Source: Halobacterium sp. DL1
GTDB taxonomy: Archaea; Halobacteriota; Halobacteria; Halobacteriales; Halobacteriaceae
Direction of reading: 5' to 3'
Assembly: GCA_000230955.3 (NCBI GenBank)
Contig: CP007060.1
Location: 186,001-250,000, forward strand
DNA length: 64,000 nucleotides
Of this stretch, positions 44,964-47,348 are shown one piece after another. The translations under genes were made by a program, and so were the position numbers. Each line of letters opens with the position of its first letter. The stretch's first letter is position 1. The notes beneath the pieces are model-generated. The model did not search any database. It was not told the DNA's origin and saw only the letters and a list, made by a program, of their open reading frames with translations.

Positions 44964-45359
44964 CTACTCGCTGCCCGCTCCCCGCTCGTCGCCCGACTGC
45001 TCCACTGCGGGCGGGCGGACCGCGATGATGCCGTAGCTGTGGACGGTCAGCGTACAGCCGGCGTACTCGAAGGAGACGTGGACGTCGCTCGCCGAGGCGG
45101 AGCGGTCTCGCCGCTCGACCAGGTTGTCGAGGGCCTCGGGGTCGATTACGTCGTTGAGCGTCGGTAGCTCCGTCGGCCCGGTCTGCGTGACGACCGCGAC
45201 CGTCGCGACGACAGCCATGCTCACCGACTCGGTGTTCCCGTCGAAGGACGCTCGATACGTGTCCGTCTCCGGGCTGTAATCGACCGCTTCGCTCCGTTCT
45301 ATCGAATCGACGTCGAGCTCTGACACATCGGGGGGAGCCGGAGGAGGGTCGTTTGCCAC
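44964..45359 (-). CDS. HalOD1 output-domain protein
   Basis: A protein of about 131 residues with the halobacterial output domain HalOD1 (SMAVVATVAVVTQTGPTELPTLNDVIDPEALDNLV, then DVHVSFEYAGCTLTVHSYGIIAVRP). The domain often ends haloarchaeal response regulators, but here it stands alone without receiver or kinase. GTG 45359 is chosen because a TATA box (aagtatatcc on the minus strand, about 45383-45392) lies about 29 bases upstream, giving a leaderless message. The longer frame to 45488 would place the promoter inside the gene. Confidence 0.8.
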   Translation of the reverse strand: MANDPPPAPPDVSELDVDSIERSEAVDYSPETDTYRASFDGNTESVSMAVVATVAVVTQTGPTELPTLNDVIDPEALDNLVERRDRSASASDVHVSFEYAGCTLTVHSYGIIAVRPPAVEQSGDERGAGSE

Positions 45360-45634
45360 AGCGGGCGTAGGGAGGTTGGGGGGATATACTTTGTTTAGGA
45401 GCGATTTGATAGCTTGTGGAATCCGGGGGGCTGCTCTGCTGTTCGCACCGTCCAGTTCGCTCGCTGTCGGCCACTGTGCGTGGGTCACCGGGTCTTCCGT
45501 GGTGGGTCTCCCCTATCATCGGGTTGCAGTGGCAAGCAGAACTGACTCCGAAACGTGCGTGGAACTCCTACCCGTGTCTGTAGTGGCGGGTTTCGGAGCG
45601 GTCCGTTAGTAGCGCGCAACTCGGGTTCACAGCT

Positions 45635-46492
45635 ATGAGAAACGGTAACCAGGACCGATATCGACGTGGACGGGGCGAGGGTCGGGACCGGGAGGAGCGC
45701 CAGCCAGCCCGGGCCCAGCAACGCGCGGAACGGGGACAGGTCCCCCGCCAGAGCGGCCGACGGCACGACGCCCGACGCGGAGCACAGTGGCAGGGCGGCC
45801 AGGCAAGCCCGGGCGACGAGCGACGGGAGGGGGGTCGGCGCTGGCACCGCCAGCAAGGCAGTCCACCACAGGCCGGTCAGTCAGGCGGGCAGCAGCCAGG
45901 TGCTTCTGGAGGAAACGGACCGCCGACCAACTCGGGCCCACGGGGCCAACCGCGCGGCCAGGGTGTCGCGGGCGGACACTCCCCGCAGGGCCAGCAGCCA
46001 GTCGAGCAGGGCGAGTTCCACGGGCAGCGAGGCGACCAGTGGCCCCAGACTGGCGGCGGCCAGCAGCGCGGTGGGGGCGGGCAGCACCCGACAGGAAGCG
46101 GCCCGAATCACCAGCAGGGCGGCCCACAGCACGGCCAGCGACAGCGACGACAGCAGCAGTCGGCCCGGCCACCCGCCGACCAGTGGAGCAACACCAATGC
46201 GGAGCGAGGCGGTCAGCAGCCCGGGCGGCAGTCCGGCGGTCGAGCAGGAGTCAGCGGCGGCGGAAACCACGTACGGAACCAGCAGCGCGACCAGCCGAGC
46301 CAGTTCGTCGACCCCCAGGGCGGCCAGCGGAGCGCTCCCCAGCAGGTCGGTCGGGGGCGCGGCCAGCAGCGGGCCCCCAAGCTCTACCGGGTCCCGTTCG
46401 AGAACAACGACGAGGAGGCGGATGGCGACCAGCAGGCGGAAGACAGCCAGACGCCGGCCCGCGACGAGCGGGGCCGGTTCACGAGCAACTGA
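45635..46492 (+). CDS. Gln/Gly/Arg-rich intrinsically disordered protein
   Basis: A 285-residue low-complexity protein. By hand count it has about 52 Gln, 58 Gly, 42 Arg and 1 Lys against about 27 Asp plus Glu, so it is net basic, opposite to normal haloarchaeal proteins. RG and RGG-like units and QQ pairs occur throughout (RRGRGEGRDRE, GGQQRGGGGQ, GRGRGQQRAP). Only the C-terminal 37 residues look ordinary (KLYRVPFENNDEEADGDQQ, then a final DERGRFTSN). ATG 45635 has a TATA-like gttagtagc about 28 bases upstream. The region is open in other frames as well, but this one gives the coherent repeat language. RNA or DNA binding or condensate formation is an inference only. Confidence 0.65.
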   Translation: MRNGNQDRYRRGRGEGRDREERQPARAQQRAERGQVPRQSGRRHDARRGAQWQGGQASPGDERREGGRRWHRQQGSPPQAGQSGGQQPGASGGNGPPTNSGPRGQPRGQGVAGGHSPQGQQPVEQGEFHGQRGDQWPQTGGGQQRGGGGQHPTGSGPNHQQGGPQHGQRQRRQQQSARPPADQWSNTNAERGGQQPGRQSGGRAGVSGGGNHVRNQQRDQPSQFVDPQGGQRSAPQQVGRGRGQQRAPKLYRVPFENNDEEADGDQQAEDSQTPARDERGRFTSN

Positions 46493-46730
46493 CCGCGAAG
46501 GTCGCCGTTCTTGGTTCTCCGCGCCTGACGGCTCGCTTCGCTCGCCGTTCGGACTGGCCGAGGGTCCTCGCGCCTCGCGGGTCGCTTCGCTCACGGCTGG
46601 CGCCGTTCGCGTTCTCGTGGCCTCCCGCTGGTCGGCCACGCACTCCCCGCTCGGACAGGCCGAGGATTCTCCCTCTGCTCGAACCCTCGCGCCCGACACG
46701 CTTTTGCGACCCCCCCGGCAATCCCCGGGC
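46493..46730. other. Gene-free spacer with repeated GCTTCGCTC words
   Basis: No gene is evident. cggctcgcttcgctcgccg (46526-46544) and gggtcgcttcgctcac (46580-46595) repeat a palindromic word also found at 37.8 kb. Two imperfect direct repeats (gactggccgagggtcctcgcgcc and the later ggacaggccgagg with ccctcgcgcc) are visible. The cttttgcgac before 46715 may be the DUF5806 promoter. Confidence 0.5.
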
Positions 46731-47348
46731 ATGCCCGAACAGCGTGCTCCGCCGGCCGAGTGGGACCTCGCCCCCGCGGTCGAACCGGTCGTCGAGGCGT
46801 CCGCCCCCGAACCCGACTCCGACGTGCCGCGGGACGTCCGGGAGTACAAGCGGTTCTCGAAGATGGACGGCGCGCAGTACGACCGCGTCAACGAGTTCCT
46901 GCGGGACCGCACGTACATCACCGCCCGCGAGTGGGCCATCGCGCGGCTCTGTGCCGACTTCCGCACGGAGACGGGCGTGGAGATGACGAAGATCGGGGAG
47001 AACCTCCCGGAACTCGTCCCGTTCATGACCGACACGTACAGCCCGCAGGCCGTCAACCAGGCGCGGTCTGCGTTCGAGGACAAGGTGCGGAAGGCCGGCG
47101 CGACGTTCCTCTACGGCGCGATGTGTGACTTCTTCACGGCGGACGAACTCGACGACCTGATGTACGAGGTGACGGAGGTGGCGAAGTTCCTGCTGGAGGT
47201 CGAGGGCGTCGACCTGGCCGTCGAGGAGGAACTGGCCGCCGAGGAACGCATCTCGACGGTGATGCGGGACGTGCGATCGGCGAGCGACGAACTCCGCCAC
47301 GACGGCACCGAGTGCCCGAACTGCGGGCACGAGTTCGGCGGCGACTGA
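46731..47348 (+). CDS. DUF5806 family haloarchaeal protein
   Basis: A 205-residue protein with an acidic and proline-rich N-terminus to about residue 40. A helical core follows: YKRFSKMDGAQYDRVNEFLRDRTYITAREWAIARLCADFRTETGVEMTKIGENLPELVPFM, then NQARSAFEDKVRKAGATFLYGAMCDFF. The C-terminus is a half zinc-ribbon (CPNCGHEFGGD). It resembles the conserved haloarchaeal family DUF5806, of unknown role. ATG 46731 is used; an open extension upstream runs through the disordered-protein gene in a different frame and is not coding. Confidence 0.8.
   Translation: MPEQRAPPAEWDLAPAVEPVVEASAPEPDSDVPRDVREYKRFSKMDGAQYDRVNEFLRDRTYITAREWAIARLCADFRTETGVEMTKIGENLPELVPFMTDTYSPQAVNQARSAFEDKVRKAGATFLYGAMCDFFTADELDDLMYEVTEVAKFLLEVEGVDLAVEEELAAEERISTVMRDVRSASDELRHDGTECPNCGHEFGGD

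Follow-up and report, generated by a model that had tools for sequence, protein, structure and literature searches.

The open reading frame (ORF) at positions 45635–46492 (+) of the window, i.e., the 64,000-nucleotide stretch of Halobacterium sp. DL1 DNA analyzed as a whole, is an orphan rich in Gln, Gly, and Arg, whose composition exceeds chance. The explanation favored here, albeit tentatively, is a species-restricted, protein-coding gene for an intrinsically disordered polycation that would act by multivalent binding of low specificity. The ORF extends from an ATG at 45635 to a TGA at 46490–46492 and comprises 285 codons, and it is recognized by its composition, its compositional change points, and the phase lock of its CAG triplets. 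Its translation contains 58 Gly (20.4%), 52 Gln (18.2%), 42 Arg, a single Lys, and 27 acidic residues (Asp plus Glu), resulting in a net charge of about +16 and a predicted pI of 11.6, a recount that agrees with the figures of an earlier note (about 18% Gln, 20% Gly, and 42 Arg in 285 residues, with one Lys and a net positive charge). The residues VILMFYW account for only 7% of the protein, and aromatic residues are scarce (2 Tyr, 4 Phe, and 4 Trp). By composition, an Arg-rich N-terminal part (residues 1–57, 45635–45805, +), with 16 Arg plus Lys vs. 7 Asp plus Glu, is followed by a Q/G-rich middle (residues 58–228, 45806–46318, +) and a charge-balanced C-terminal part (residues 229–285, 46319–46489, +), which includes an acidic patch. 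Upstream, the hexamer TTAGTA (45606–45611, +), noticed by eye, could be a weak archaeal TATA-like element, located at −29 to −24 relative to a putatively leaderless ATG. Tandem repeats were looked for in the ORF and none were detected; hence, an origin by tandem repetition was rejected.

In the molar-salt cytoplasm of haloarchaea, proteins are normally acidic. In agreement, gene calling on 1.23 Mb of the genome (3.16 Mb in two contigs) gave 721 genes with a median pI of 4.50, only 4% of which exceed a pI of 9, and this bears out the description of the ORF product as a basic protein in an organism with an acidic proteome. The median Gln content of the same sample is 2.3%, with a 99th percentile of 6.1%. 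Moreover, the ORF tops by far the Gln ranking of 6,556 ORFs of at least 100 residues (17.7% vs. 10.9% for the next one) in a comparison set of 1.41 Mb of DNA consisting of the window and mostly haloarchaeal loci. Nevertheless, it is not the sole Q-rich protein of its genome. The 2.4 of 3.16 Mb scanned contain four ORFs that equal or exceed its Gln content. One, with 39% Gln, precedes an Hsp20 gene, another encodes a Dps-like ferritin whose tail is Q-rich, and the remaining two, named by eye, presumably resemble PDCD5 and prefoldin. None of these four combines Gln, Gly, and Arg with a strong positive charge.

The ORF is probably a real, translated gene. An open frame alone proves little, since 17% of dinucleotide shuffles also contain a stop-free frame. 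A three-segment fit to base composition, which makes no use of the reading frame, placed its best breakpoints at 45669 and 46499, near the ends of the ORF at 45635 and 46492. CAG triplets are distributed over the three phases of the ORF as 49/6/3, whereas no phase contained more than 26 in any of 1,000 dinucleotide shuffles. G or C occupies the third position of 97 of the 106 two-fold codons, and the CAG:CAA ratio (49:3) matches that of the genes of the genome (248:13). In six-frame scoring, the ORF frame is stop-free and obtains the top score, and no alternative frame or strand fits better.

It is most improbable that the ORF frame is non-coding and that the gene lies in the antisense or another frame or specifies an RNA. 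The high G+C content keeps long frames open on both strands, and the sense-minus-antisense codon margin of the ORF is small (0.067), while each of the nine calibration stretches from Q-rich genes shows at least 0.22. However, the aligned antisense frame is interrupted mid-way by a stop and would require CTG over CTC, opposite to the preference of the genome, and the remaining frames score lower. An Rfam search of the locus returned no match, and an RNA gene was rejected on this basis.

Codon usage also bears on a second alternative, namely that the ORF is young and devoid of selected function, an open frame, perhaps expressed, in unusual DNA that was recently inserted or has diverged. The synonymous-codon score of the ORF is about 0 per codon vs. 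0.06 to 0.30 for 29 genes of the window, and it is worst, i.e., negative, in the N-terminal two fifths. A low score does not exclude a gene, since the nine Q-rich calibration stretches span −0.20 to 0.19. Furthermore, the strong phase lock of CAG, the genome-like choice among two-fold codons, and composition breakpoints so close to the start and stop codons argue against this alternative, which is considered unlikely. In turn, the C-terminal fifth reaches 0.155 per codon and is the most gene-like part of the ORF. The description of the C-terminus as ordinary is right with respect to its codon usage.

No homologue of the whole protein was found in 13 Halobacterium genomes, in 392 genomes of the order, or in collections of phages, plasmids, viral contigs, and genomes of 84,980 species, in searches that covered one genome per species and have weak sensitivity with low-complexity queries. 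Order-level matches with E values of 0.002 to 0.3 were discarded, as those that were translated looked like fortuitous hits, either to ordinary proteins or to a different frame. The last 47 and 39 residues, used as separate queries, retrieved only weak scattered matches (best 0.014), and the C-terminal 39 residues have no credible match elsewhere in the 392 genomes of the order. Thus, the conserved C-terminus with a variable middle that had been anticipated did not appear in these genomes. The motif DERGRFT was also rejected as a family mark, since the 9 of 293 genomes that carry it do so in no similar protein. Judging by these searches, the ORF is apparently an orphan restricted to one sampled species. 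This absence from all collections searched is also what a young ORF without selected function would show.

On the left of the ORF lies a divergently oriented HalOD1 (DdfA-like) gene of uncertain start (44964–45488, −; Pfam PF18545, E 3.7e-23; NCBIfam DdfA just below the cut-off) and, on its right, a DUF5806 gene assigned by Pfam (46731–47348, +) that is present in 13 of the 13 Halobacterium genomes searched and whose closest relatives, in a search of named genomes, belong to Halobacterium species. The interval between the ORF and the latter gene contains an intergenic repeat (46520–46653) that is dispersed in the genus, with many copies over the 13 genomes; this repeat is of the GCGGGTCGCTTCGCTCACGG type. 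A comparison of the flanks indicates that the stretch 45435–46660 has no counterpart in the sister species G010, where homology breaks off near 45435 and returns near 46660, and approximately 140 bp take the place of 1.2 kb. Both neighbors are kept in G010, with 99% identity for the DUF5806 gene and 80% for the HalOD1 gene, and the latter has a close counterpart at the same site only in this species, where an in-frame stop upstream casts doubt on its start. In the remaining Halobacterium genomes, alignment of the flanks puts DUF5806 close to the Usp gene, and neither the HalOD1 gene nor the ORF has an aligned counterpart. Relatives of the HalOD1 gene were also checked for a divergent Q-rich neighbor, and none convincing was found. 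The ORF either arrived together with the HalOD1 gene and was later lost in G010, or was inserted later in the source genome (G000). The ORF missing from the sister-species site again accords with a young ORF. The occurrence in one species only and the 1.2 kb that have no equivalent in the sister species would also fit a gene introduced by a virus or plasmid, e.g., for a protein that packages nucleic acid, and since left stranded in the chromosome. However, viral contigs, phages, plasmids, and PHROG yielded no match, and no integrase was recognized among the six neighboring genes run against Pfam, so that such an origin appears improbable.

Regarding the nature of the protein, the expectation of disorder agrees with prediction. 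The mean hydropathy of 0.289 lies well inside the disordered range (boundary 0.433), and a single-sequence AlphaFold2 model, whose pLDDT is weak evidence in the absence of an alignment, shows no helices, a mean pLDDT of 50.8, and a pTM of 0.15. pLDDT increases only over the last 40 residues, reaching about 73 in the last 20. By low hydropathy for its charge and lack of a predicted fold, the protein would belong to the intrinsically disordered class. Disorder predictors overcall proteins of halophiles owing to their acidity (PMC6384707). This bias is not directly relevant to a protein that is basic and rich in Gln.

The earlier note had also heard in the protein an RG/RGG/QQ language resembling that of eukaryotic RNA-binding proteins, a comparison that holds for composition and not for motifs. 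Eukaryotic RGG/FET-type RNA-binding proteins are disordered and rich in Gly, Gln, and Arg, and the ORF protein shares this general character. However, RGG occurs twice vs. 1.7 times expected from composition, RG 12 vs. 8.6 times (p 0.11), and QQ 13 vs. 9.3 times (p 0.11); thus, neither these motifs nor GR are enriched over shuffled sequence and the likeness is one of composition only. Moreover, the ORF protein differs from the RGG/FET type in having few Tyr or other aromatic residues and no folded RNA-binding domain such as an RRM, for which Pfam, NCBIfam, and the PDB were searched; the protein matched no entry in these three resources or in PHROG. In the literature library searched, no publication joined haloarchaea, RGG, and RNA binding. 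In a survey of low-complexity domains across life, Q-rich occupancy is uniquely high in eukaryotes and D-rich classes are enriched in archaea (PMC11132505). The ORF protein would fall among the Q- and G-rich domains of that survey and, as an Arg-rich, basic low-complexity protein in a haloarchaeon, it departs from the trend.

Contrary to what had been assumed for haloarchaea, Halobacterium does have Q-rich low-complexity proteins, which are encoded beside Hsp20. In the source genome, an ORF of 326 residues with 39% Gln and 24% Gly (G000:C1 2338518-2339498, −) lies directly upstream of an Hsp20 gene and overlaps its start. Q-rich ORFs (22–41% Gln) precede Hsp20 in G000, G010, and six further Halobacterium genomes (eight in total), and the same arrangement is found in G022, from another genus of the family. 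Most of these proteins contain a conserved VE-ADT-LLAETLARRLGLTSQQLAQVVPQL segment, which was not seen in those of G000 and G010. Two of them were run against Pfam and no family matched; they are possibly chaperone companions. In addition, a Dps-like ferritin of the source genome carries a long Q/P/S-rich C-terminal tail (G000:C1 876521-877879, −), and among the 13 Halobacterium genomes this protein with its Q-rich tail was matched only in G000 and G010 (E 1e-20).

These genes suggest, by analogy, that the ORF could encode a Q-rich stress-associated protein that, like those linked to Hsp20, would accompany stress assemblies as a low-complexity partner. The Hsp20-linked proteins are likewise of low complexity, rich in Gln, and poor in hydrophobic residues, and those of G000 and G010 are also Gly-rich and contain some Arg; the Dps-linked gene of the same genome is of similar low-complexity composition. 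However, the similarity is limited to composition. The Hsp20-linked proteins are kept beside Hsp20 across much of the genus, most of them with the conserved segment, whereas the ORF protein shows neither feature, is much more Arg-rich and basic, and is encoded at a separate locus, flanked by the HalOD1 and DUF5806 genes and not by hsp20 or another chaperone gene. Such a role therefore carries a low probability. Descent from the Hsp20-linked gene or the Dps tail was rejected, as the alignment score fell within the shuffled range. In favor of the explanation preferred here, the existence of other Q-rich low-complexity sequences tied to stress genes in the same genome indicates that the cell tolerates them.

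Within the favored explanation of a species-restricted gene for a disordered polycation, the Arg-rich N-terminus and the Arg residues scattered elsewhere would make the contacts, either with nucleic acid or with acidic surfaces on haloarchaeal proteins. The Q/G-rich middle may serve as a spacer that is flexible and possibly associates with itself, and the short C-terminus of mixed charge is the sole part with slight predicted order. Molar intracellular salt screens charge attraction, which counts against a polycation that functions by binding. As a working idea, a polycation loosely bound to nucleic acid or acidic proteins is the most economical, and condensate formation by the protein is a possibility. 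The most far-reaching version, in which a strongly basic, disordered cytoplasmic protein arose within one Halobacterium lineage and, at molar salt, forms condensates that collect RNA, DNA, or acidic proteins, is quite improbable. If translated, the ORF would offer a natural means of testing whether disordered proteins that are driven by Arg and rich in Gln and Gly can work in a molar-salt cytoplasm. Moreover, together with the Q-rich proteins linked to Hsp20, it indicates that low-complexity sequence rich in Gln is a recurrent feature of Halobacterium.
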